Source: a virus
Reading direction: 5' to 3' (one strand)
Virus record (IMG/VR): IMGVR_UViG_3300025433_000001
Coordinates: 1-57,510 of that record
Length of the DNA: 57,510 bases
Part shown: positions 3,964-51,658 of the stretch, in pieces
Layout: every line of letters begins with the position of its first letter
Position numbering within the stretch: the first letter of the stretch is position 1
The notes under the pieces: generated by a model
The model's database searches: none
Told to the model about the DNA's origin: nothing
What the model saw: the letters and a program-made list of their open reading frames with translations, nothing else
Position numbers and translations under genes: made by a program

Positions 3964-6648
3964 TTAGCGTGTAATGATGACGAGGCGCGTATCTGTACCG
4001 GTCTGGGATACTTCGCCGGTACCTTGGAACGACCCCGCCGGGAGTTGTTCCGACGTGCCGCCTACCTCTTCGAGCCAGTCGCGGAAGGCGGTAGCCTTCG
4101 AGTCAGTGCGGAAGAAAATACCTTCCCCAGCGATAGCCGCGAGCCGTCCGCCGTCTTTAAGGCAGTGGTAAGCGGCGCGGATGTGGTCGGCATCCTGTCC
4201 CTTTTCAAAGGGCGGGTTCATTATCGCTTTATCGAATCGAGAGATTCCAGTATCTTCCCCGTTGGGGTTTGTAAAATCTTCGCAGAAAGTAATGAACCCT
4301 TTTAGTTCTAGGATCTCGCACAGGCTCGGGCGTATTTCTACACACGTCACGACCCCTCCCGCGTCTCGGGCTCGTTCTGCTAGGTTCCCGGTACCGGCGG
4401 AAGGCTCAAGAACAGTCTCCCCTTCTTGAATGTCGAGGGCGTCGAGCATTTTCTCCGCTACGGCGCACGGCGTCGGGAAGAATCCGGGGATTTTCTGCCC
4501 CGTGAGGTTCAGAATTTTATTCTTTAATTCAGTCTCCTTTTTCCGTGCCGCTTCCGCTTCGGGGTCGCTGGCCTCTTTGAGGAGAGTCAGTAACGCTACC
4601 GCCGCCGGTGACGTGTCGGAAAACTCGCCGGTGTCAACAATGGAATAATAACCCCCGGACATGTCGGAACGTGTCTCCGTGTATTTGAGCAAGTCCTTTT
4701 TCGTTCGGACGGTCTGCAAGATAGGCGGGAGGGTGCCCGCTTCGAGACCGTCGGCCAGAACCCGCGCGGCAGTCTGTACCCGTTCGAGGTGGTGCCCTTC
4801 GATCATCCGCGCCTTATATTCTAAATTGCGCTTGGGCGTCGGGATCTGGGTCATGTCGCGGGTTTTATCTTCGATCTGGGAAGTCAGGCGGTCGGCCATG
4901 GCGCGGAGCTTCTCGGCACTGTTAGCGGCTGAGTTTGGGCGGGGCGTGTCGCAGTCTGTTGTTTCGTGCGGGTCGGTGCCGTAGGGTTCCGGCTCCGGCT
5001 CCGGCTCCGGCTTCCAGTTGAGAAGCGAGAGCGGCAGATTGTCGCCGGTCGTCCTCATGTACTCTTTGAGCGGGTGCCCGTCCTCTTCGCCCCGTGTGAG
5101 GTCGAGACTCATAGACAGCCACCAGCCGAACTTTATTTCCTTTTCCGTTCCGATAGCCCGCCCGATGTCCGCGAGGGCCGGAAGGCGTAGAGGGTGCGGC
5201 AGTTGTCCCACGGTTCTCGCTTTGACTTCTTTCTCCTCGGGCGTGTAGTCGGCACTCTGGACGTTGTAAGGTGCTGGGATTGCTTCGGCTTTGGAGTCTG
5301 TCGGCGGCGCGTCGGTGCCCGTCGGCTCGGGGTCGGTGCCCGCGATGCCGTCCGCGAAAGTCTGCGCGGCTTCGGGAGTCTTAAACGCGAAGCCTGCGGG
5401 GGTCGTGCCCCACTTGCGAGAGTACCAACCCCCCAGCCCCTGCGCGGTGCTTTTGAGTGCTTGGAACTCGTCGCGCTCTACGCGGTCGGATAGTCTCACA
5501 AGCCACATCTGAAAGCCTTTTTTCGTGTGTGTGTGCTCTTCGATAGTCACCGGCCCCGTGGCGGGCGTTTGACGGGCGGCGTCGGTCGCGGGTGCCGTGG
5601 TCTCTTCAAACTTTAGCGCGAGCTCTACAACGTGGCACCCCGTCCCCTCTTCGGGGTCGATCACTGCGAGAAAGGCACCTTTTCCGGTCAAGTCTGTTTT
5701 ACTAATCAGCTCCCGCGCTTTCCGGTTTTTATGTTGTTCCGTTTCCCAGTCGTCGAGGTTGCCCATTTCTGGAAGTGCGGCTTTTACAGTCTGCAGAAGC
5801 TCCCGCGTGTTTCGGCTCGTGAAAATGTATCGACATCCCCCAAAAGCGTCGTTAAACGCGGTCGAGTTGTAGTTGTAACTGTCTGTCATCCCGTCAAAGT
5901 GTCCTTCTTTAAAGTTATTTGTGAAGGCTTCGACTTGGTCGGCGGTCGGGCCGTCGTTCCAGTTTATTTGAACTCTAGAATAGTCAGAAGTTACCGAGAA
6001 ACGAATACCGGGAAACTCCTTTTTCAAGGTCAGTCTTATATTTTTAGCGGCATCTTTTCCGCCCCCGCTCCCCCCTACGCGGGAAAGGTAGGGGTAATCA
6101 AGCGCGGCGGTCTCCTCTTCCGCCCATTTTTTCGCTTTTTCTTCTGCCTGTTTTTCTTCCCTCTTTTCCTGCGCGGCTTTCCGCTCTTCGGCTTCCGTCG
6201 CGTGTTGCTCTATGCTCTTGCGCTCGTCGCGTACCGGTTGGCAGTCTCTAAGGGTTGGGATTAGTTCTAGCGCGGCGGCTATGAGGGCGCGGCAATTTTC
6301 CCGCGTGATTTTCCCGCCGTGCGCCGCGTGTAAAACATTGAGCGCGTCAGTCTGTTTGTTTTTGTGTGTCTGTTCCTCGTCGGTCGGGCATCCCATGATA
6401 TACTGTACGCTCTCATGTTCTGAGCCGTCGGGCCACGAGGACAGGACCCGCGTGCCGCTTCCGGCCCCGAGTACCTTACCGAAGGCTTTTTTTACGTCGG
6501 CAGTCTGTCGCGGCCCGGCTTCGCTTGCCCATTTAAGAATCTCGGTATTTTCTACATCTTCGGCGGGGCGGGTACGCTGGCCGGGGTACGTGGTTTCTGA
6601 TAGGTCGAGTGTTTCGGCGGGTGTGCTGATAGGTGTATTCGTTTTCAT
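3964..6648 (-). CDS. Large polyvalent protein: LPD29-like domain plus C-terminal N6-adenine methyltransferase
   Basis: This is the largest gene of the early block (894 aa). Residues about 150-182 form a highly charged coiled coil. Residues about 200-290 match the large polyvalent protein domain 29 pattern (EFPGIRFSVTSDYSRV, NDGPTADQVEAF, FDGMTDSYNYN). A Pro/Ala/Thr-rich region and a PEPEPEPEP linker follow. The C-terminal ~180 residues are a Rossmann methyltransferase with EPSAGTGNL (near 748) and catalytic NPPF (near 811), preceded by FFPTP, as in M.TaqI-like and BREX-related adenine methylases. Polyvalent proteins are often delivered or expressed early to counter host defence. The enzyme may methylate phage DNA on entry, or it may only bind it. 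The leader is AAAGGAAACGAAACC. Confidence 0.88.
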   Translation of the reverse strand: MKTNTPISTPAETLDLSETTYPGQRTRPAEDVENTEILKWASEAGPRQTADVKKAFGKVLGAGSGTRVLSSWPDGSEHESVQYIMGCPTDEEQTHKNKQTDALNVLHAAHGGKITRENCRALIAAALELIPTLRDCQPVRDERKSIEQHATEAEERKAAQEKREEKQAEEKAKKWAEEETAALDYPYLSRVGGSGGGKDAAKNIRLTLKKEFPGIRFSVTSDYSRVQINWNDGPTADQVEAFTNNFKEGHFDGMTDSYNYNSTAFNDAFGGCRYIFTSRNTRELLQTVKAALPEMGNLDDWETEQHKNRKARELISKTDLTGKGAFLAVIDPEEGTGCHVVELALKFEETTAPATDAARQTPATGPVTIEEHTHTKKGFQMWLVRLSDRVERDEFQALKSTAQGLGGWYSRKWGTTPAGFAFKTPEAAQTFADGIAGTDPEPTGTDAPPTDSKAEAIPAPYNVQSADYTPEEKEVKARTVGQLPHPLRLPALADIGRAIGTEKEIKFGWWLSMSLDLTRGEEDGHPLKEYMRTTGDNLPLSLLNWKPEPEPEPEPYGTDPHETTDCDTPRPNSAANSAEKLRAMADRLTSQIEDKTRDMTQIPTPKRNLEYKARMIEGHHLERVQTAARVLADGLEAGTLPPILQTVRTKKDLLKYTETRSDMSGGYYSIVDTGEFSDTSPAAVALLTLLKEASDPEAEAARKKETELKNKILNLTGQKIPGFFPTPCAVAEKMLDALDIQEGETVLEPSAGTGNLAERARDAGGVVTCVEIRPSLCEILELKGFITFCEDFTNPNGEDTGISRFDKAIMNPPFEKGQDADHIRAAYHCLKDGGRLAAIAGEGIFFRTDSKATAFRDWLEEVGGTSEQLPAGSFQGTGEVSQTGTDTRLVIITR

Positions 6649-17200: not shown

Positions 17201-19906
17201 ATGTTCGGGATAGAAAACAAGCGACAGTCAGAAGGCGAAATGTTCGGCCTTCGGCCCTCTAAGTCTAAGCACTTCCTACACGACTTCTACAAAGAAATTA
17301 CTGAGGATATCTATGCTTGGTGCTTCTATCTGGATTTTAAACCGACGTGGCAACAGAAACAGCTCCTCGACGCTGTTCAAGAAGGGTACTCGAACGTTGC
17401 CGTGCGCTCCGGGCAGGGGCCGGGGAAATGCCTTCACGGAGATACCGAAATACTAACGTCCGAGGGAGTTAAAAAAATCAGAGACCTTATAGGGCGAGAA
17501 GACCTTCTTGTTTGGAGCATGGATGAGGCAACAGAAAAAACACACACAGCAAGTGCTAGGTGTTTCCCATCAGGATACAAGAAATGCACAACAATTAGAA
17601 CAGATTCAGGGCAGTCTACACGGCTCAGCACCGACCACCCTGTATATACTAGTTCGGGATGGCAAGAAGCGTCTGAGATAACTAACGGATGCCTTGTAGC
17701 CATGCCTCGTAACCTTCAATGGGTAGGAACTGAAGAAGTACCCAGCGAGGAAGTAAGGTGGGTAGGCTACATCCTTGGCGACGGAGGAACAACAGCCAAG
17801 CACGGAGTTCGTTTCACGCAAGAACCTTCCGATAGTTTGGATGATTTCCTACACTGCTGTAATTCTTTAGAGATGACATACCTCAACAGTTCGTCGCCCT
17901 CCAAAGCTCGGGACATAAGGGTGCACCACAAAGCGTCAAACGATGTGTTGTCTCGGTGGTCAAAAAGATCGTTAGCCAAACACAAAAGATTGCCGGATAG
18001 ATTTTGGAGTATCCGGCAGGACAGGGCGGCTGAGATACTGGCTACTTTGTGGCTGTGCGACGGGTACTTTGAGAAGGATGGAGCAGGCATCTGCCTAGCC
18101 AGTGAAGGGCTGATAGACGATGTGCAAACAGCACTACTTTTTTGGGGTATCCACAGCAGGAAAAGGTATAAAAAAGTTAAATTGGGAACGAAAACATTTG
18201 ACTCTTGGCGTCTAAGTATCTCAGGCAGGGAATCTCTGGTGCTCTTTTACGTGGAGATACTTAAAGGTTTCCACTCGTTTGATAAAATAAAAAAAGGACA
18301 CGTAAACTATCTGACGAACATCTGGAGTAAGCCAGAAAACACAAACACCGACGTTGTTCCCTATGACGACAAAGCGATGACCGAGATAGCGGAAGAATTA
18401 GGTATCCCCAAGACACGTCTGCGGGAAAAAGGGTGGAGAGGGCGCAACTACTCTCTATTGAGCAGGAAAAAATTCAAAGAACTCGTATCGGCTACAGGAT
18501 ACGATGGCAAACACGCTAAGTGGGCATCGAACGATATTTACTGGGTGCGGGTTGTCAGTAACACACAAGACAGGACAAACACGCCCGTCTACGATTTAGA
18601 GGTGCCAGAGTATGGAAATTTCGTGGCTAGAAATCTGGTTGTCCATAATACCGCCGCCGACGCCATAGTCGTGCCGTGGTGGAATCTCAAGTATCCGAAG
18701 AGCCTCGCGGTCGTCACAGCCCCGACAATGCGGCAGTGTAAAAACGTATGGCTCTCAGAGGCTCAGGGACGCATACAATCAGGCGACCCGCGTATCAGTT
18801 CCTTTTTCAACTTCACCGGCACAGGGTACGGCATTATGGGAAGTCGTAAAGACATCTGGGGGTGCTACCTTGCCACCGCTAACCGGCCAGAAGCGTTTCA
18901 GGGAATCCATAACCCCTACCTGCTCATGTTGTGCGAAGAAAGCTCCGGTATCGCACGAGGAATCATGGACACGATCAAGGGAACGATGTCCAACGCCGAA
19001 GGTACCTTCTTATGGCTCCAGATCGGAAACCCGAACACACGAACTTGCTCCTTCTTCGACTGTTTCCATTCCCAACTGGACAACCCTTGGCACTGCCTAC
19101 ACTGGAATGGGGAAGAGACACCGGAAACCCCTTGGTTTTCCAAGCGTCGAAATGAAGAAATCGCCGAGGAATTCGGCATGGATTCCGATGTTTACCGCGT
19201 CCGCGTGCTCGGGGAATTTCCGCACACCGACCCGTCAGTGCTTATCAACGAAAACGACCTCCTCGCGTGCACCAAACCAGAGGCAAAAGCGGCGGCACTG
19301 GCGGTAAATGTCAAGATGCGGCCGGTTCGGAAACAAATCGGCATCGACTTGGCTCGATACGGCGGAGACAAAAACTCAATCTCTACATTCTCAGGAAATA
19401 TCATGCTGAAGCTAGAAGCCTACAGCCGCACCGACCCGAACGCCACCATAGACAGGGCTGTCGTACTGCAAGAACATCTGGGATGGGGTAACAGCGAATG
19501 TACGTTTGTTGTGGATACTTCCGGCATGGGAGAGATGGCCGCAGGGATGCTCGGCAGTCAAAGACGCATGGGAAGGAAGATGCACGAGTTCTATTCCCAA
19601 AACACGGCGCACGAGTCGCAAAAATACGACAATAAAATCACGGAAGCGTGGTGCTTGTTTGCTAAAGAGGTTCGTGCCCACCGTATGTTCCTACAGTACA
19701 ATAAAAGTCTCTTTCAACAGCTTACAAACCGACTGTATTCCGTGACCAAACACGGCAAAATTAAGATCGAAACCAAGGACGAGTATAAAAAACGCAACGC
19801 TGATTCGTCCGATGGGGAGCTCGGGATGTCTCCAGACGAGGCTGACAGCGTGGTTTTAGGCCACTACCCACACGCAGTCGCCAGTACACGAGTCCTAACC
19901 GCGTAG
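17201..19906 (+). CDS. terL: Terminase large subunit interrupted by an intein
   Basis: The precursor is 901 aa. Exteins are residues 1-76 and 484-901 (494 aa after splicing), normal for TerL. The ATPase P-loop SGQGPGK-T is split by the intein. Walker B is LLMLCEE, followed by the coupling region QIGNPNTR. The C-terminal RNase H-like nuclease begins IGIDLARYGGDKNSI and includes FVVDTSGMGEMAAGML and a late acidic site (MSPDEADS). The enzyme cuts concatemers and pumps DNA into proheads through the portal. The leader is GGAGACCAC. No TerS or portal is adjacent; the next gene is a truncated paralog of its ATPase half. Confidence 0.95.
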   Translation: MFGIENKRQSEGEMFGLRPSKSKHFLHDFYKEITEDIYAWCFYLDFKPTWQQKQLLDAVQEGYSNVAVRSGQGPGKCLHGDTEILTSEGVKKIRDLIGREDLLVWSMDEATEKTHTASARCFPSGYKKCTTIRTDSGQSTRLSTDHPVYTSSGWQEASEITNGCLVAMPRNLQWVGTEEVPSEEVRWVGYILGDGGTTAKHGVRFTQEPSDSLDDFLHCCNSLEMTYLNSSSPSKARDIRVHHKASNDVLSRWSKRSLAKHKRLPDRFWSIRQDRAAEILATLWLCDGYFEKDGAGICLASEGLIDDVQTALLFWGIHSRKRYKKVKLGTKTFDSWRLSISGRESLVLFYVEILKGFHSFDKIKKGHVNYLTNIWSKPENTNTDVVPYDDKAMTEIAEELGIPKTRLREKGWRGRNYSLLSRKKFKELVSATGYDGKHAKWASNDIYWVRVVSNTQDRTNTPVYDLEVPEYGNFVARNLVVHNTAADAIVVPWWNLKYPKSLAVVTAPTMRQCKNVWLSEAQGRIQSGDPRISSFFNFTGTGYGIMGSRKDIWGCYLATANRPEAFQGIHNPYLLMLCEESSGIARGIMDTIKGTMSNAEGTFLWLQIGNPNTRTCSFFDCFHSQLDNPWHCLHWNGEETPETPWFSKRRNEEIAEEFGMDSDVYRVRVLGEFPHTDPSVLINENDLLACTKPEAKAAALAVNVKMRPVRKQIGIDLARYGGDKNSISTFSGNIMLKLEAYSRTDPNATIDRAVVLQEHLGWGNSECTFVVDTSGMGEMAAGMLGSQRRMGRKMHEFYSQNTAHESQKYDNKITEAWCLFAKEVRAHRMFLQYNKSLFQQLTNRLYSVTKHGKIKIETKDEYKKRNADSSDGELGMSPDEADSVVLGHYPHAVASTRVLTA
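17429..18649 (+). mobile_element. LAGLIDADG intein (407 aa) within the TerL Walker A motif
   Basis: The intein spans residues 77-483. It starts with Cys (CLHGDTEILTSEG, block A), has the block B TxxH site (STDHPVYTSSGW), and ends VYDLEVPEYGNFVARN plus LVVHN (blocks F and G) before Thr as the +1 nucleophile. Splicing restores GPGK-T. The core contains a dodecapeptide homing endonuclease with two motifs, VGYILGDGG and LATLWLCDG, both with the acidic residue. All blocks look intact, so splicing and homing may be active. Its base composition is more AT-rich than flanking TerL DNA. P-loops are favoured intein sites because a precise excision is the only tolerated loss. Confidence 0.95.
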
Positions 19907-19942
19907 GGAACCATAAAATAAGCAACTAAAGGAGACTATCAA

Positions 19943-20506
19943 ATGGGTAAAGAACCTAAAAGAGAAATATATGATTACCTGACGAAAATAACCCCAAATA
20001 TAGGTGCTTTTTGCACGGCACTTAATTTCTCTCCTAGAGAAAGACAGAAAGAGTTTTTGGACTCTTTTACACGTTGCCCCGAAAGCACGGACATTGAATG
20101 GGATAGGGGGGAAGGGAGAACCACAGCAACTGTGGTGGCTTCTTTGTGGTGGTTGCTTAAAAACACACAAGGAAGGTGTCTAGTAGTGTGTCCAACCCTA
20201 AACCAATCAATACATATCTGGTTAACTGAGTGTAAAAAGATTTTAGAGAAAGCAGACCCTCGATTAAGTTCCTTTTATACCCTGAGAAAAACAGGAGCGG
20301 GGCTGTTTGGGGAACAGAAGCATGTGTGGGGGTTGTCCACTATCTCGGCTCGCAGTGTTGCAGGTTTCCAAGGCATTTGCGCAGAAAAACTACTCATTGT
20401 ATGCGACGAATACCAAGGCATCAAGCAGGATGTTATGGCCACCATTCAAGATTACCAGAAGTACGGCGGTGTTGTTTTAAGAACGATACCGACTCAAAAC
20501 CGTTGA
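19943..20506 (+). CDS. ATPase-only TerL paralog with altered Walker A, 187 aa
   Basis: The product aligns along its length with the TerL extein ATPase domain. GAFCTALNFSPRERQKEFLDS matches YAWCFYLDFKPTWQQKQLLDA. DPRLSSFYTLRKTGAGLFG matches DPRISSFFNFTGTGYGIMG. LLIVCDEYQGIKQDVMATI matches LLMLCEESSGIARGIMDTI. The P-loop reads RGEGRTT, with Arg for the catalytic Lys; Walker B is a canonical CDE. It ends at the coupling motif (TIPTQNR against IGNPNTR), so the nuclease domain is missing. It has its own AAAGGAGACTATCAA leader. It is AT-richer than TerL. It could be a decaying duplicate, a regulator that joins the packaging ring, or a decoy. The altered P-loop would not match the intein homing site. 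Confidence 0.85.
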   Translation: MGKEPKREIYDYLTKITPNIGAFCTALNFSPRERQKEFLDSFTRCPESTDIEWDRGEGRTTATVVASLWWLLKNTQGRCLVVCPTLNQSIHIWLTECKKILEKADPRLSSFYTLRKTGAGLFGEQKHVWGLSTISARSVAGFQGICAEKLLIVCDEYQGIKQDVMATIQDYQKYGGVVLRTIPTQNR

Positions 20507-20552: not shown

Positions 20553-21713
20553 ATGCCAGCTAAAATTTTACAAATTAAAAACGCTCTCACCATCCAACGC
20601 GACGGCGAAAAAGTTGGACGACTCGATATTTCCGGCGAAGTCGGCTGGGATTGGTATGGCGACGCATGGGATGCCGGATATTTTCAGGCACAGCTCCAAG
20701 ACCTCGGCGACGTAGCTCTTCTCGAAGTGCACATCAACTCTCCGGGCGGTTCAGTCATCGACGGCATCGCTATTTTCAATTATCTGGTACAGCACCCAGC
20801 ACCAGTTCATGTTTACGTGGACGGCGTGGCCGCATCCATCGCATCTGTCATCGCCATGGCGGGCGACAAGATTTACATGCCGACCAACACGCTCGGGTTC
20901 ATCCATAACCCCCTCATGTACACCGTAGGAAATGCCGAGGAACTCCGTAAGGATGCAGACACACTCGATACCATGCAGTCGGCACTGATCGCTTCCTACC
21001 TGCGCCACTTTAAAGGAACCGAAGCCGACATTCAGAAAATTATGGACGCTGAAACATGGCTCACTGCCAACGAAATGGCGGAACAATTTAACCACGTAGA
21101 AGTGCTCGCGCAGGAAGTTAAAATCGCCGCTACATTGGACATGAGTCACCTCGGGGCCGAGCTCCCCGACAAGGCTAAGGCATTCCTCGAACAAAAAAAC
21201 GAGGAAGAAGATAAAAATTTCCTTGCTAAATGTCGGGATTTCCTCAAACGTACTGACTTTAAGAACGCTGTGGTGGGTCTTAACGAAGATCTCAAAGCAA
21301 AACAGAACCAACAGGAGGATGTAATGACACCCGAAGAAATCGCCGCTATGAAAGCAGAGATCGTAACCAGCGTGACGGAAGCCGTCCTTGCTGTTGTGAA
21401 GCCCGAAGAAGAAGAAGTTCCAGCCGCAGTCGCTGAAACTCCCATCGAATTTGTGGGCGACCTTAAAAACCCCGACGACGTGAAGGCACACGCCGCAAAG
21501 CTGGCATCTGCCAAGCTCGAAGCCGCCGTTGACTGGCAAGACCCCGCCTCTGTTCAGGCGTACCTCGACGCTATCACCCCCGCCGCTGACGTTTCCGGCG
21601 TAAAAGGCTCCAATGCCACCACCCCGACCGACCAACTTTCTACGGAAGACAAAGCCTTGAATAAGGCGGACACCTCGAAGAAAATGGACGCCATGATGCC
21701 CCAAGGCCGCTAA
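20553..21713 (+). CDS. Prohead protease of ClpP type, with C-terminal scaffold-like region
   Basis: 386 aa. Residues about 15-200 form a ClpP/S14-like serine protease: NSPGGSVIDG oxyanion region, VDGVAASIASVIAMAG with the catalytic Ser, and LGFIHNPL supplying His. The remaining ~185 residues are acidic and helical (EEIAAMKAEIVTSVTEAV, EEEEVPAAVAE), as in protease-scaffold fusions of lambda gpC/Nu3 type. An internal scaffold start could be ATG 21324 after AACAGGAGGATGTA, which would give an Nu3-like separate scaffold. It matures the procapsid and precedes the decoration and capsid genes as usual. Confidence 0.92.
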   Translation: MPAKILQIKNALTIQRDGEKVGRLDISGEVGWDWYGDAWDAGYFQAQLQDLGDVALLEVHINSPGGSVIDGIAIFNYLVQHPAPVHVYVDGVAASIASVIAMAGDKIYMPTNTLGFIHNPLMYTVGNAEELRKDADTLDTMQSALIASYLRHFKGTEADIQKIMDAETWLTANEMAEQFNHVEVLAQEVKIAATLDMSHLGAELPDKAKAFLEQKNEEEDKNFLAKCRDFLKRTDFKNAVVGLNEDLKAKQNQQEDVMTPEEIAAMKAEIVTSVTEAVLAVVKPEEEEVPAAVAETPIEFVGDLKNPDDVKAHAAKLASAKLEAAVDWQDPASVQAYLDAITPAADVSGVKGSNATTPTDQLSTEDKALNKADTSKKMDAMMPQGR

Positions 21714-22433: not shown

Positions 22434-23513
22434 ATGCCCGCTGATCCCGTAGAAGCCATTGAAACACGCGAACTGACCCGGTTAGTTAATCGGACTGAAC
22501 GCCCCCGCCGTGCACTCACCGCAATGCTCTTTCCAGATGCAACGCACCGCACATTGATGACCGAAACCGTCCAAGTGGACGAGTTGACGGGCGAAGACGA
22601 ACTCGCTCCGTTCATCGAAGTTAACGGCGAAGCCGTAAACGTCAGTCAGAACAACGGCCAGTCGTACACGTTTGCGACCCCGATGATCTCTGTCAAGCGT
22701 CCGCTTACGGCACAACAGCTCCTTTTCGAGCGGCGTGCTGGGAGCCCTATCGTGTTTTCCGACGGAGGAACCGATGTCGCTGGCGAAAACGCTATGCAAC
22801 AGATCGCTGACGACCTCGCAAAACTTGAAAAGGTTTGCAATAAGAGGGAAGAGTGGATGGTTGCTCAGGCACTGACCGGCTCCATCTCGTATTCCATCGA
22901 AGGCAAAGCGTCTTTCTCCATCGACATGCGTAAGCCTGCCGGAAATACCTTCGCGGCTCCTAACGGGTTGTGGAACGGCGGAAGCCCCGATCCTCGTGGC
23001 GACATCAAAATCATCCAGCGTCTCTGCAACACGAACGAAGTTGGTTCTGTTACGGACGCTATCGGTGACAGCACTGCCGCAGACGCGCTCGACGACCTCA
23101 TCACCGCCGAAACCGTTGTCCTCGATAAGGATGCCTCGATCTTCAACCCGAACACTTCCATGATCGCTACGTATGCCGAAAACGGCATGCGCTTCATTGG
23201 TGTTCTCGGTGGAGTCCGCTTCTGGGAGTACAACGCTTCCTACAAAGCAGACGGCACAGGCACTGTGACCACGTTCATCCGCGCCGGGTACTTCGAGTTC
23301 GTTCAGCTCACGCAGACCGCTCAGTCCAACCGCACGATGTTCTACGGTCGTATTCCTGACCTGAAGGCAATGCGCGAAGGTCTGGACGTTACCAAACGAC
23401 TCGCACGGGTTATTGAAAAAGAAGAGCCGAGTGTTCTCATCAATATCCTGAAGACCCGTCCTCTGCCGTGGTTCTACCGCGCTGACGAGAACGTGTCCAT
23501 GTCGGTCGTGTAA
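22434..23513 (+). CDS. Major capsid protein, lambda gpE-like HK97 fold
   Basis: 359 aa with an AGGAGGAAACACC leader, the strongest in the cluster, followed by a strong terminator. Regions typical of the lambda E family include MLFPDATHRTLMTETVQVDE, an E-loop-like region (PFIEVNGEAVNVSQ, SVKRPLTAQQLLFERRAG) and the end LKTRPLPWFYRADENVSMSVV. It builds the icosahedral shell. Pairing with a gpD-like protein and a ClpP-type protease is consistent with a lambda-type head. Confidence 0.93.
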   Translation: MPADPVEAIETRELTRLVNRTERPRRALTAMLFPDATHRTLMTETVQVDELTGEDELAPFIEVNGEAVNVSQNNGQSYTFATPMISVKRPLTAQQLLFERRAGSPIVFSDGGTDVAGENAMQQIADDLAKLEKVCNKREEWMVAQALTGSISYSIEGKASFSIDMRKPAGNTFAAPNGLWNGGSPDPRGDIKIIQRLCNTNEVGSVTDAIGDSTAADALDDLITAETVVLDKDASIFNPNTSMIATYAENGMRFIGVLGGVRFWEYNASYKADGTGTVTTFIRAGYFEFVQLTQTAQSNRTMFYGRIPDLKAMREGLDVTKRLARVIEKEEPSVLINILKTRPLPWFYRADENVSMSVV

Positions 23514-39638: not shown

Positions 39639-39744
39639 GTGCTTTAGATTTTGAATATGCCGTTTACGCGGATTGCTTGCTGGGAGAGACGGTCTCGCTC
39701 CTTGCTTTTAATCCGTATTGCGGCGACTTATAAGGGACTATATT

Positions 39745-41118
39745 ATGAGCGACAAAGACAAAAACTTCAATGTATCGAATGTATGTTCCCGACCGCCCGC
39801 TCCGTTGTTTAAGGGTGCCGGAAGTGAGATGTACGCTCTGACTACGATCTCCGGGAGTAAAGGCACCACGGAGCCTGCAGGGTCGAACGCGGAAGTTCTC
39901 CAAGGTCAGAAGGTTCTTCCGCCGCCGCTCAACATTAAAGCCGCCCTCGCGCTCAAGGACAAATCACCCCACCACGCTACCTGTATCGTCACCAAGAAGA
40001 ACTGTATAGCAGGCCTTGGTTTCCTGTCTGACAAGGACATCAACAACGACGGCGCGATAGATGCTACCGAGGAGCACGCCGCTGAGGTCGCTTCCCTGCT
40101 CACGGGAGCACCCTACGTTAAATCGGACGCGGACACCGCGCTCGACCCTCGTACTCATTTCGGATTTTCTCCCGAGTTACTGACGGCAGTAGAAGACTTC
40201 CTCGACACCGGCACCGGTTATTTGGAAGTGGTTCGCACAGGGGGGGACATCACATGGATCGGCCACCTTCCTGCGGCATCCGTGCGCTTTGTCCAGAACG
40301 GGCGTCACCTCTATTTCCAAGTCCAAGAAACCGGCGGCGCATTGAAGTACTTCAGTCGTTACGGAGCGGAACACAAAAAGTGGCTCCTTGAAGAAGGCCC
40401 GTACAAAGGATCGACCTCCCACACCGAGGACACCGTATCCGAGGTTATCGTTTTCCAAGAGCCCAGTAATCGCGTTAAATATTACGGCTACCCTTCTTGG
40501 CTCGCGGCGGCAATCGACATCGACCTGCTGAAAAAGGCCAAGCAGTACAAGGCCGATTTTTATCACAATCGCGGCGTGATGGATTTCATTCTTTCTATCA
40601 CCGGTGCGAAGGTAGACGAGGACGATTGGAAAACCATCAACGACAATGTCACCGGCACGTCCGGCGAGGGCAACAACTACAAGAACATGGCACTGAATAT
40701 CGCTAGTCCCGACGCCAAAGTGGAAGCCATCAAGCTCGCCGCCGACATGAAAACTGAAGACCAGTTTACCAAGGATAACGAAACGTTCGCTCTGAACATT
40801 GTTACAGCTCACGGAGTACCGCCTCTGCTCGCAGGTATCCAGATCTCCGGTAAGCTCGGCGCGTCGAACGAGTTCTCAAGCTCGTTGGTAGGCTTCCAGC
40901 TCCTGCGCATCGGCCCAGCTCAGCAGATCGTGCAGAAGGTCTTGGCCTCGACCCTCGGCAACAACGACGAAAACGGGGACTTGAAACTCGAAGAGAACGA
41001 CTTCCGCCTGCGCTCGATCACATCCCAGATCAATCTCGACGGCCTCGACACTCTCGGTAAAATGCACGAAGAAGCCGTGGAAGTAGACCGTGACCTTAAC
41101 GACGGCGTTAAGGACTAA
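39745..41118 (+). CDS. Portal protein (PBSX/HK97-like family), 457 aa
   Basis: Start at ATG 39745 with AAGGGACTATATT; a longer frame starts 27 nt earlier without an SD. Portal hallmarks: NIKAALALKDKSPHHATCIVTKK, LEVVRTGGDITWIGHLPAASVRF, YYGYPSWLAAAIDIDLLKKAKQYKA (the YGxPxW signature), and FALNIVTAHGVPPLLAGI plus the trans-stem part. It forms the dodecameric DNA gate. The position after the tail tip rather than between TerL and protease is atypical. Confidence 0.92.
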   Translation: MSDKDKNFNVSNVCSRPPAPLFKGAGSEMYALTTISGSKGTTEPAGSNAEVLQGQKVLPPPLNIKAALALKDKSPHHATCIVTKKNCIAGLGFLSDKDINNDGAIDATEEHAAEVASLLTGAPYVKSDADTALDPRTHFGFSPELLTAVEDFLDTGTGYLEVVRTGGDITWIGHLPAASVRFVQNGRHLYFQVQETGGALKYFSRYGAEHKKWLLEEGPYKGSTSHTEDTVSEVIVFQEPSNRVKYYGYPSWLAAAIDIDLLKKAKQYKADFYHNRGVMDFILSITGAKVDEDDWKTINDNVTGTSGEGNNYKNMALNIASPDAKVEAIKLAADMKTEDQFTKDNETFALNIVTAHGVPPLLAGIQISGKLGASNEFSSSLVGFQLLRIGPAQQIVQKVLASTLGNNDENGDLKLEENDFRLRSITSQINLDGLDTLGKMHEEAVEVDRDLNDGVKD

Positions 41119-46904: not shown

Positions 46905-47287
46905 TGGAGCTGGCGGGAATCGAACCCGCGTCCTAATCAGCTTCCAATAAAGGTTTACATGTTTTCAGGGTGGCAACTGGTGCCACCTCCACCAACTAGT
47001 TTTATCCGAAACCAGCAAAACGGGTTTCCGTCGGTTTTAGCCCCTCCACGGTCGGACTCCCTTACGGGCACCAGTCTTAGCAGTTCAGGTCGTCGATCCT
47101 CTGGCATCTTCTTCGACCCGTTCATCACACCTCAGTTAAGCGGCGATTGCGAGAGCCGGAGCTCCGCCGATGAATCCTAGAACTTTCGTTTTAGCATTTA
47201 TGTTTTGGACGGCTTTTTACGTGGCCCACCGACCAACCACGACATGAACTTTATTTTCTGTCTAACCAGTCGAAACCAGTCAGCCCC
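46905..47287 (-). ncRNA. ssrA: Phage-encoded tmRNA
   Basis: The leftward transcript starts GGGGCTGACTGGTTTCGAC and ends GGACGCGGGTTCGATTCCCG then CCAGCTCCA. The acceptor stem pairs GGGGCUG with CAGCUCC. The T-arm GCGGG-TTCGATT-CCCGC and the D-loop-like GGTTTCGAC are the universal tmRNA ends. CCA is not encoded. Length is about 383 nt. The predicted tag frame (47195-47136) reads AKTKVLGFIGGAPALAIAA and stops, with ATAAAT before the resume GCT. The -AA end fits ClpXP-type degradation. A pseudoknot-like hairpin GGTGGCACCAGTTGCCACC is near the 3' side. One-piece form. It would rescue stalled ribosomes with host SmpB. Confidence 0.93.
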
Positions 47288-48292: not shown

Positions 48293-50407
48293 TCAATTCC
48301 CGAAACGATCCTCTAACAAATCACGGGCTTCAGAGGTAGTAACTCCGGGCTTGGCTCCCCATTCTTGGAGAATTTCAAAGGGGACAACTTCCGGCATGGG
48401 GGTGTGTGTGGCGTATATAATCTTCTGTGCATTACCCTGTGATTGGTGCACGTAAGCCGCATCGTTTAACGTCGCGCCGAACAGAACCCTATCGAACTCC
48501 GTTGTGAAACAGGTAGTGACGTTTACTTCGTCGTACTCCTGCTCCATGCGGTGCTGTCGGCCTAGGGACTGCTCTGCTGTTTTCGCGGATCTCGGCCACT
48601 GGAGGTAGAACATGTTGTGGTCGAACTGGAGATTTTTGCCGGTGCCGTGCGCGTTCACCGTTAAAATGATAAGCCTTCCTCGGCACTTATCGGGCTGGTT
48701 TAGGAGTACGTTCGATACCTTTCCGGCTTTGCACAATAATGGGTCGAGCCCTTCCTCTACTGCTCTCTCGTAAACCCAATCCCCCATCTCGTCGTTATCG
48801 TACCAGATCAACCCGCCTTCGCCCTTGGGAAGGTTCTTCGCCCACTCTACGGCCTTCTCGACCTTGAAGCCGCAGACCCTTATCGCCCGCTTGTTCCGGT
48901 CGATACGTCGCTCGAAATCGGAATCCTTCCACTCGCGCCATGAACAGAACAGATCGTAGCCGACGTTCTTATAGCCGTGGATGCTCATATCTTTACCGAT
49001 GAGCATGGGCGTGTCCAACCCTGCCCGAGCGCGGTCGGTTATCCATGCCCGTAGATTCCTCTGATACCCGAGGTGGCAGGAGTGGTACTGCTGAGACCGT
49101 TTCAGGATGTCCTTAGCGTCAGCGACCGACGCGTATTTCTCACGGCGCATCATCCAATCAATATCCGGCCAGTACTGTTCCGTGTAGAATCCCGCGCCCT
49201 CTATCCAATACTTCCAGCGGAAAAGGTGCATGGCTTCCTCGATCTCGTCGCCGTTGGGCGTGAGCCATTCCTGTTCGAGTTGCTGGACGAGCTCCCGTAA
49301 CTTATCCCATCCTTCGTACTTCTCGGGGTGGGGTATCGGCTCGTTTTTGATATAGAGGGAATAAGGCAGATCGTCCCCGCTCGAACAGACCACACCGGGG
49401 GTCGTGGTAAGTCGTTTCTGGAACACGTTGCGGAAACCTTTAACCCCTCCGTCGAACGTTTCCTCGGGGAAATTCTCACGAGCCCAGTTGAGAATGTATT
49501 TAAGCGGCCCTGCTTTCGGTAGTGTGTCGTTCCTGAAATCTGAAAGGCTCGTCGCTGAACTGTCGATGATCTTCGACCACTCCTCTGTAAGAGAGCGCGA
49601 GTTCGGTAGGAAATTGTTATCGCCGAGGGCGGCACGCGCCAGCTCGAAGTAATCCGTAAGCATCTTCTGTGTCATGGTTCCCGAGAGCGCGACGACCTTC
49701 GGGCGTTTCTCGTTCAGGTATTTATTGAACCGGCGAGCGCGGGCGGATTTCTTGGAGACAGAGTGCGCCTCGTCAAGAATAATCAGGTCAGGGGAAATCG
49801 CATCCAGAATCTCGTGCGCGTCCGGCTGTGACAGTAAGGAATACGTGTAAATGTAGAGACCCCTGCGCCCGGAGTTGGCGAGTAATTTCCTCTTGGATTT
49901 TGAAAGCCCCGCGATGCGATGAATCGGGGTATTGAAAATCGTGCGCGGACGCCAGTGTTTAATGTCGGTATCGCAGAGCTGTGTAGCGAGCGACGGCGGC
50001 ACGATAATCATAATCTTATCCATCCCGCCATGGTACGCGTCGTTGGCGATCAGCAAAGAGGTAAGCGTCTTCCCGCCTCCGACCGCGAGCGGTAGGAACG
50101 CCCCGCCGGTATCGTTGAACGCGATGAGCGATTCTGCCTGCTTAGGAAGGAGCCTACCGCCCTTGATAAAGGCCTCGGCTTGAAAGTAGTGCTTTGACAC
50201 GGCTTCGAGGTCGTCCTCGGTCAGCTCGTACCGTACCGGGACGTTTACGATGCGCATAATCTCCGCGTTCATCGTGTCCACGGCGCGGGATCTCATCTTA
50301 TTGAAATTCAACGGCGGGCGTTTCGACGGCGCGGCGGCAACGGACACAGCCCCTACGCTCTGCGCGAGGGACTTCATGCGGGCTATTTTATCGGAAGTTA
50401 TCGACAT
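48293..50407 (-). CDS. SF2 DEAH-box helicase (SNF2-like), 704 aa
   Basis: Walker A LAVGGGKTLTSLLIAND, motif Ia VPPSLATQLC, Walker B ILDEAHSVSKKS, motif III VALSGTMTQKM, and C-terminal motifs V/VI (VNAHGTGKNLQFDH, SAKTAEQSLGRQHRM). This order is that of SNF2/RapA-type SF2 translocases in phage replication modules. It probably unwinds or remodels DNA during replication or recombination. Its start overlaps the end of the glycosyltransferase gene. Confidence 0.92.
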   Translation of the reverse strand: MSITSDKIARMKSLAQSVGAVSVAAAPSKRPPLNFNKMRSRAVDTMNAEIMRIVNVPVRYELTEDDLEAVSKHYFQAEAFIKGGRLLPKQAESLIAFNDTGGAFLPLAVGGGKTLTSLLIANDAYHGGMDKIMIIVPPSLATQLCDTDIKHWRPRTIFNTPIHRIAGLSKSKRKLLANSGRRGLYIYTYSLLSQPDAHEILDAISPDLIILDEAHSVSKKSARARRFNKYLNEKRPKVVALSGTMTQKMLTDYFELARAALGDNNFLPNSRSLTEEWSKIIDSSATSLSDFRNDTLPKAGPLKYILNWARENFPEETFDGGVKGFRNVFQKRLTTTPGVVCSSGDDLPYSLYIKNEPIPHPEKYEGWDKLRELVQQLEQEWLTPNGDEIEEAMHLFRWKYWIEGAGFYTEQYWPDIDWMMRREKYASVADAKDILKRSQQYHSCHLGYQRNLRAWITDRARAGLDTPMLIGKDMSIHGYKNVGYDLFCSWREWKDSDFERRIDRNKRAIRVCGFKVEKAVEWAKNLPKGEGGLIWYDNDEMGDWVYERAVEEGLDPLLCKAGKVSNVLLNQPDKCRGRLIILTVNAHGTGKNLQFDHNMFYLQWPRSAKTAEQSLGRQHRMEQEYDEVNVTTCFTTEFDRVLFGATLNDAAYVHQSQGNAQKIIYATHTPMPEVVPFEILQEWGAKPGVTTSEARDLLEDRFGN

Positions 50408-51285
50408 TTCTTACTACCCTTTTCAATTACTAATTTCATACCGTATTCATTTACCCCTGAAGGGACTACAACGCCCTCTTTTCTAGTTAGTTTAGTCGCC
50501 TTGAAAGGCGTGTAATCTACGTGATGGTGCCAGCGGTTAAACTTGTGAACCATCTTCGCCACGTCGGGGTGCATCTCCTCCAGCATCTTACTTTTAGGGA
50601 CTGTCCCCTCTCCGCTGTAGAACTCCTCCGTGTTCCCTCCCTTCATTCGTTGAGTGGTGACTTTGCCCTGCAAGAAAGCATTGAATTGGACAGTACACCA
50701 CCCATCTTTGAGGGCTCGTAAGCAAATGTCCGTGTCCTCATTATACCTCCCGCGCCACCTGTAAGGGATGTCGTTACGGATCAGCAAACAACTGTAAATT
50801 CTAGTGTTAGTAATCAGAGGAGGTACGGGGTCTACAGCCTTGCAAAACGCTTCATAGTTAGGCCCAGAGATTGCCACGTTAGAATACCGTTCTACAAAAT
50901 CTTCCATCGCACGGAAGATAGCCCCTGTTCGGCTCTCGTACTTCACGTTACGGTTTAACCTGTAAAAGGCTTCTAGGTTATCATCCATTACCCAGTGGTG
51001 TGAGTGTCCCTGTTCGGTGGAGTGATCCCAAACGAAATTCCTCGCCGCCCCCGGACCAACCTTGTTGTCGGGCTCCCTTTCCCAGAACGTGTCGTAATCG
51101 TCTTTGTATTTTTCTGGGAGGACAAGCACCCGCTCAGGCCCTACGGCTTCTGCGTAATCTGCGTACTCGTCGGATTCTACTACCAGCTTATGAGGGACGT
51201 TCATTATATCGAGAGCCCTGCTTGTGACCCTGCTATCCCAGCGGCCTTTGGAAACAATATAAATAGGGTGTTTTGGGTTATTCAT
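50398..51285 (-). CDS. TET-associated-type glycosyltransferase (TAGT/GREB-like), 295 aa
   Basis: Opens NPKHPIYIVSKGRWDSRVTSRALD, followed by HKLVVESDEYADYAEAVG, LPEKYKDDY, GAARNFVWDH and HHWVMDDNLEAFY, the DxD-type metal site. A later RGRYNEDTDICLRALKDGW holds the acceptor or catalytic acidic region. As I recall, this is the pattern of the TET/JBP-associated GT-A glycosyltransferases of phages that glucosylate hydroxylated bases. I start at ATG 51283-51285 after GGAAGGTATGGATAC. No TET/JBP dioxygenase or hydroxymethyl-nucleotide synthase was recognised elsewhere, so its substrate is unknown. Confidence 0.8.
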   Translation of the reverse strand: MNNPKHPIYIVSKGRWDSRVTSRALDIMNVPHKLVVESDEYADYAEAVGPERVLVLPEKYKDDYDTFWEREPDNKVGPGAARNFVWDHSTEQGHSHHWVMDDNLEAFYRLNRNVKYESRTGAIFRAMEDFVERYSNVAISGPNYEAFCKAVDPVPPLITNTRIYSCLLIRNDIPYRWRGRYNEDTDICLRALKDGWCTVQFNAFLQGKVTTQRMKGGNTEEFYSGEGTVPKSKMLEEMHPDVAKMVHKFNRWHHHVDYTPFKATKLTRKEGVVVPSGVNEYGMKLVIEKGSKKCR

Positions 51286-51658
51286 GTATCCATACCTTCC
51301 GCTCAACTCTGTGGTGTGCTTTGTACGGGTGCCACACGCTTTTTGTCCTGTCTGTGATCTTCTGGCCCAGCAACTCCGTCATAATACCCGAATCAAACTC
51401 AGGGGGTACAGACAGGATGATCCATAGGAAAGGTATGCTCTTAGGTTGGTGGAATTCTGGCATCCCTTCCCACTCCGCCACGAGGCTAGGCCCTGTTTGC
51501 TTTGTTACTTTTCTGGAGGTCTCGGTGAACTCGCCAAGATCAAACACCGCCACGGTGCCCTTAACGCATTTAGGGATACAGATGCCCGTCGAAGTGTAGA
51601 AGTTTTCCACGTCTTCAGGGCACGAGAACCTTATATTCAGGTTTCTAACTGGTTCCAT
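51278..51658 (-). CDS. Conserved phage protein, 126 aa
   Basis: Start at ATG 51656-51658 (MEPVRNLNIRFSCPEDVENF) after GGAGAGTAAA. The end GQKITDRTKSVWHPYKAH matches a motif (ITxKTKSIWYP) I recall from a family often encoded beside ParB-like or DNA-modification genes. It overlaps the glycosyltransferase gene, so a linked role in base modification is possible but inferred. Confidence 0.6.
   Translation of the reverse strand: MEPVRNLNIRFSCPEDVENFYTSTGICIPKCVKGTVAVFDLGEFTETSRKVTKQTGPSLVAEWEGMPEFHQPKSIPFLWIILSVPPEFDSGIMTELLGQKITDRTKSVWHPYKAHHRVERKVWIHE

Follow-up and report, generated by a model that had tools for sequence, protein, structure and literature searches.

A stand-alone paralogue of the TerL ATPase with a defective P-loop, encoded next to terL in an uncultured tailed phage, and the recurrence of such genes in its relatives

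The window analysed here (57,510 nucleotides, positions 1 to 57,510 of the IMG/VR virus record IMGVR_UViG_3300025433_000001) encodes, beside its large terminase gene, a stand-alone paralogue of the TerL ATPase with a defective P-loop. This protein, referred to as the twin, consists of 187 aa (19943..20506, plus strand) and has no nuclease domain. Twins of this kind form a class that recurs next to terL among uncultured tailed phages of one clade. The window gene is a less degraded, separately placed and probably imported example of this class, without close homologues. The reading that best accounts for the data, with a probability of about 0.5, is that the twin would be a pseudo-ATPase that partners TerL in the packaging motor.

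The terL gene of the window (17201..19906, plus strand; PHROG 5902) encodes a precursor of 901 aa, in which an N-extein (17201-17428) and a C-extein (18650-19906) flank an intein. The spliced TerL amounts to 494 aa and its P-loop, GQGPGKT, is intact. The twin gene starts with an ATG codon and is preceded by a strong ribosome-binding site (AAAGGAGA, 19928..19935, plus strand), as read directly from the sequence. Residues 6-169 of the twin were aligned by BLASTP with the spliced TerL without a single gap (56/164 identical residues, 34%; 116 bits, E 3e-35). An HMM of the TerL ATPase, built without the twin, matched it at E 8e-34, and the comparison with the TerL profile (hhalign) gave P 99.8. These significant matches exclude a lack of alignment to TerL, and they bear out the sequence-only reading, which had described the ORF as collinear with the spliced TerL ATPase domain and nuclease-less. 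In PHROGs the only match was the TerL-like phrog_5902. The AlphaFold model of the twin displayed an ATPase fold (pLDDT 89.7, pTM 0.88), and its best PDB matches were T4 gp17 (top), the Avs3-bound phage TerL (8dgc) and the TerLs of P74-26 and D6E.

Alignment of the motifs revealed a partial loss of the catalytic residues. The degenerate P-loop of the twin, DRGEGRT (20102..20122, plus strand), corresponds to GQGPGKT of TerL and differs from it by Lys59 to Arg, Gly54 to Asp and Pro57 to Glu. The arginine occupies the Walker A position at which 51 of the 51 compared TerLs have a lysine. This substitution had been recognised earlier, when RGEGRTT was set against GQGPGKT; that register did not hold, and the first glycine was found to be lost as well, being replaced by Asp. 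Walker B reads LLIVCDE and keeps both acids, as anticipated (Asp155-Glu156; 20405..20410, plus strand), Glu156 being invariant in the 51 TerLs. The protein also ends where it had been said to end, at the coupling motif. Its C-terminus IPTQNR (20486..20503, plus strand) is level with the motif IGNPN(T)R, so that ..TIPTQNR stands opposite ..IGNPNTR of TerL, with PTQ in place of GNP. The ORF stops at 187 aa and the next gene follows 46 nt on, with no C-terminal RNase H-like nuclease domain. The twin retains 47% of the positions conserved in at least 85% of the 51 TerLs. Among the TerL positions with 98-100% conservation, Q35, G56, G58, P84, Q88, G144, E156 and G159 are kept, and G54, K59, H146, T171, N184 and P185 are lost.

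Single-sequence searches found no close homologue of the twin in IMG/VR viral contigs. Phage records searched with the twin alone yielded distant TerLs only, and no relative of it emerged from two scans of contigs from bacterial genomes. A fold search in BFVD returned TerLs and short TerL pieces. At rank 25, a 185-aa uncharacterised protein of the cultured Yersinia phage fHe-Yen9-04 (A0A2C9CX17) was similar in fold to the twin along its entire length (TM 0.60); it might represent one exon of a split TerL, or else a twin carried by a cultured phage.

The gene order in the window is lysis genes (recognised by eye), terL with its intein, the twin, a ClpP-like head maturation protease directly downstream of it (20553..21713, plus strand), a small head protein (assigned by position) and the major capsid protein, Phage_cap_E (22434..23513, plus strand). 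The closest relative, L011 (IMG/VR 3300033146_002754), is 87% identical in the capsid protein, 71% in ClpP and 89% in the TerL nuclease. Its TerL-ClpP gap is an empty stretch of 57 bp, and neither the twin nor the intein is present in this phage. In two further relatives, L005 and L006, the gap holds an unrelated minus-strand gene and no twin. Since all three have no twin at this site, the twin is regarded as an insertion specific to the window lineage. L030 and L031, like L005 and L006, have a minus-strand gene between TerL and ClpP.

The twin had been thought to sit in the slot usually taken by the portal. This point has become moot, as the portal gene was located behind the tail genes, not beside TerL (39718..41118, plus strand; phrog_68 at E 9e-20, and phrog_12). 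The twin therefore does not replace the portal, and the idea of a displaced portal was ruled out. The nearest relatives likewise have no portal gene adjoining terL. Compared with that of L011 (L011:210-1718), the window TerL is mosaic, with a break near extein residues 230-245 and an ATPase domain that is only 50% identical. Identities to outgroups hint that the foreign ATPase domain was acquired by L011 and not by the window TerL. That the twin is the displaced original ATPase domain of the mosaic TerL was rejected, as its identity to the ATPase of L011 amounts to only 24%.

Elsewhere in the window, a complete tmRNA was found at 46905-47287 on the minus strand (Rfam RF00023, 130 bits; tag AKTKVLGFIGGAPALAIAA), a feature that is uncommon in phages. 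Three further minus-strand genes encode an N6/N4 DNA methylase (306-1118), an LPD29 polyvalent protein with a methyltransferase-like C-terminus (3964-6648) and a TET-associated glycosyltransferase (50398-51306). Together, these three proteins suggest that the phage DNA is modified.

When the records of the relatives were searched with a profile, two phages (G013 and G014) turned out to have a second TerL-like ORF. Directly upstream of TerL, L020:2377-2919 encodes a 180-aa protein that is 67% identical to its L022 counterpart. A survey was carried out on 80 TerL loci of the window's clade from IMG/VR, with every ORF tested. Of the 80 loci, 32 encode a TerL-ATPase-like, nuclease-less protein with a degenerate P-loop immediately before TerL, and 33 contigs do so in total. 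The TerL-adjacent, ATPase-only ORFs for which the sequence-only reading had recommended a search are thus present in 33 other contigs, upstream of TerL. The independent twin lineages are fewer than 33, because many of these contigs are near-identical; by our own count, 15 of the 49 TerL ATPase segments (clusters at 90% identity) carry an upstream twin.

Most of the upstream twins fall into a group, W, of proteins of about 180 aa that lie directly before TerL in 25 contigs (24 of the 80 loci plus L118). Nearly all its members end in ..VW, and the stop codon mostly lies 1-6 nt from the TerL start, so W is probably translationally coupled to TerL. Both Walker motifs have been lost in W, with neither the P-loop Lys nor the Walker B Glu remaining. 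The homology to TerL was evidenced by profile comparison with 51 TerL ATPases (hhalign, P 98.5, E 2e-15), and a W-only HMM matched dozens of TerL ATPase domains (best E 7e-11) as well as the window twin (E 3e-8). The model of one member (L069) reached pLDDT 89 and pTM 0.87, and its top PDB matches were the TerLs T4 gp17, P74-26 and HK97. A second group, V, comprises six contigs of one TerL subclade (L067, L081, L083, L088/L089 and L091) in which an ORF of about 200 aa overlaps the terL start. The V profile matched TerL at P 96.6 and E 6e-10, and none of 300 control ORFs reached E 0.01 against the TerL profile, V being compared as a five-sequence profile and the controls as single sequences. 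L101/L102 is probably a third case of an upstream twin. No above-chance match in Pfam or PHROGs was obtained for the upstream-twin members tested, and the L020 and L069 twins had no match by tblastn in 50,697 named phage records. The window twin shares with W and V the TerL ATPase fold of about 180 aa, the degenerate P-loop, the lack of a nuclease and the complete terL alongside. Its gene begins 36 nt after the end of terL and has a ribosome-binding site of its own, whereas W lies upstream and is probably coupled.

The dN/dS ratios of W ranged from 0.19 to 0.48 in seven informative pairs (dS 0.34-1.2), and those of TerL in the same contigs from 0.06 to 0.34; the near-identical W pair L060/L061 was uninformative. 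W is thus kept by purifying selection, yet it is less constrained than TerL. Neutral ratios or frameshifts in relatives had been named beforehand as marks of decay. In group W the ratios are not near 1, and interruptions were found only in two upstream twins, a frameshift in L072:4150-4826 and an in-frame stop in L102:4163-4966, which reflect either decay or sequencing error.

With respect to descent, the GC3 of the twin was 0.41, compared with 0.62-0.63 for TerL, 0.48 for the intein and 0.48-0.69 for the other genes and exteins examined. This value, the lowest of all, suggests that the gene was imported and not duplicated on the spot. A tree of 67 sequences grouped W as one clade (100/100), with the window twin as its sister (97.4/90); both branches are long, and the sisterhood may be due to long-branch attraction. 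When W was left out, the twin grouped, with weak support, with L027/L034/L035 and the TerL of the window, and its sisterhood to the latter was not rejected (AU 0.44). A recent tandem duplication of the window TerL is unsupported, in view of the foreign-looking GC3, the weakly supported placement in the tree and a nearly as high identity to the L030 TerL (34.5% over 110 aa).

The main rival reading for the window copy alone, which we consider less likely, is that the ORF is a recently imported, truncated and functionless TerL piece, a kind of moron-like debris whose role would be unrelated to that of the upstream twins. The absence of the twin from the nearest relatives, its low GC3, its lack of close homologues and the mosaic nature of terL here (identities to L011 of 50% in the ATPase and 89% in the nuclease) fit such an origin. 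The 187-codon frame is intact, however, and has a strong ribosome-binding site. In addition, the fold has been confidently kept while the P-loop, the coupling motif and His146 were lost, which suggests some time spent as a non-catalytic ATPase-fold protein and not a fresh truncation. The third-position identity, which is the lowest (33% versus 49-58%), also speaks against debris, though past selection could explain it. A role as a DNA- or procapsid-recruiting adaptor that replaces or helps the small terminase appears improbable. The W and V twins do fill the slot just upstream of TerL, which is the usual TerS position, and the neighbourhood of TerL in the window showed no recognisable TerS. 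However, an adjacent TerS was equally unrecognised in the twin-less relatives of the window, and in L020 a gene lying further upstream (331-1416) was judged by eye to encode a plausible TerS-like protein. The twin thus does not seem to fill the place of TerS; no DNA-binding domain was recognised in the twin either. Slightly less probable still is a TerL look-alike with a decoy or anti-defence task, which would occupy the Avs-type sensors by which hosts recognise TerL, or hamper the TerL of a competing phage. The match of the window model to the TerL chain of the Avs3-TerL complex (8dgc) indicates that such sensors bind this fold, the loss of catalysis with retention of the fold would suit a decoy, and a prophage defence gene with its inhibitor is known from the terS-terL interval (Tab, PMC10884400). 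Nevertheless, the tight and conserved linkage to terL in W and V better fits a stoichiometric partner.

The intein of the window (407 aa, beginning with Cys1 and ending in HN; 17429..18649, plus strand) interrupts the P-loop of TerL between GK and T and matches Pfam Intein_splicing and LAGLIDADG_3. It therefore combines the splicing domain, the LAGLIDADG endonuclease and the P-loop insertion that define the phage TerL P-loop inteins. Inteins near functional motifs of the phage TerL ATPase domain are well described, and TerL is the commonest intein host in the mycobacteriophages covered by the passages on TerL1 P-loop inteins (PMC5050341); the window intein is an ordinary member of the same kind. 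Those passages mention no TerL twin, unlike what is found in the window phage. Two relatives carry an intein at the identical TerL P-loop site, 32.5% identical to that of the window (L030:2185-5115 and L031:2143-5073 for the intein-bearing TerLs). The sequence-only reading had proposed that the twin is a duplicate retained because its altered P-loop resists the homing endonuclease. The position of the LAGLIDADG-bearing intein in a P-loop motif that the twin lacks agrees with this, but the remaining observations make it very improbable. L030 and L031 have the same-site intein and no twin, whereas no intein was seen in any of the TerLs of the 33 twin-bearing contigs. At the insertion site, the twin and TerL share 19/40 nucleotides. 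This identity ranks at the 60th percentile of their alignment and is no unusual divergence, so nothing shows selection for escape from cutting. Moreover, the twin is too diverged throughout to serve as a homing target, and a nuclease-less copy with a dead P-loop would be unable to back up TerL. Compared across these phages, the intein is not required for a twin to be present, nor does it suffice for one, and it is an ordinary P-loop intein with no apparent functional tie to the twin.

The pseudo-ATPase partner of TerL thus remains the preferred reading. The twin class most likely works with TerL, because the TerL ATPase fold has been kept while catalysis and the nuclease were lost, and because the upstream family is under selection and probably coupled. 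From its position beside TerL we infer a place in the motor. The twin would be made with TerL late in infection and would bind TerL or the portal via ATPase-ATPase surfaces; once bound, it would act as a non-hydrolysing subunit, a chaperone or a regulator of motor assembly or of the start of packaging. The earlier suggestion that the twin may join the motor ring as an inactive member has become more plausible with the wider evidence. Against a partner role stand the lack of a close homologue of the window twin, its location downstream of TerL and the fact that L011, L005 and L006 manage without it.

Among known systems, the closest is the TerL ATPase domain itself (T4 gp17, P74-26, HK97), which shares fold and homologous sequence with the twin and provides the best solved-structure matches; the twin adjoins terL, but it is a separate short protein encoded besides a complete TerL, and it has no nuclease, P-loop lysine or coupling motif. 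When ATPase-dead gp17 subunits are built into T4 motors, packaging continues, although more slowly, with fewer engagements and more pauses (PMC8589836), which means that a mixed motor is physically possible. The dead TerL that joins the pentameric motor in those doping experiments, gp17 Q163A, is a laboratory point mutant of the full-length protein and impairs packaging, whereas the twin is a natural separate gene. As doping with dead subunits lowers the performance of the T4 motor, an inert ring member would need to bring another benefit. Tab and anti-Tab, in the terS-terL interval of Pseudomonas prophages, offer a case of an accessory gene beside terL that acts on virion assembly (PMC10884400). 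In contrast to the twin, Tab is an unrelated short protein that acts on tail assembly and is no TerL paralogue. No TerL paralogue or inactive TerL subunit occurring as a natural gene was found in the open-licence literature, in agreement with the sequence-only reading, which knew of no described system of an intein-bearing motor with an intein-resistant, ATPase-only twin.

Because it recurs, the twin is of more interest than was first thought. A dead partner may have arisen more than once (W, V and possibly the window gene), by analogy with the inactive subunits of other ring ATPases. We tentatively consider that this clade of tailed phages may possess heteromeric motors, in which terL would be accompanied by a co-translated pseudo-ATPase and the dead subunit would set the geometry, the start or the pausing of the motor. 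The usual view of phage packaging motors is that of homomeric TerL rings, and it is still debated how the subunits divide the work between them and whether one of them is special. The present data hint that some phage motors may run with a built-in inactive partner. If a conserved, natural, dead TerL ATPase beside terL does take part, the sharing of work could be tested with evolved instead of engineered dead subunits. Given its absence from PHROGs, Pfam and, for the two members searched, the named phage records, the twin family is either an overlooked part of a core viral machine or an accessory gene of a new kind in the packaging module.
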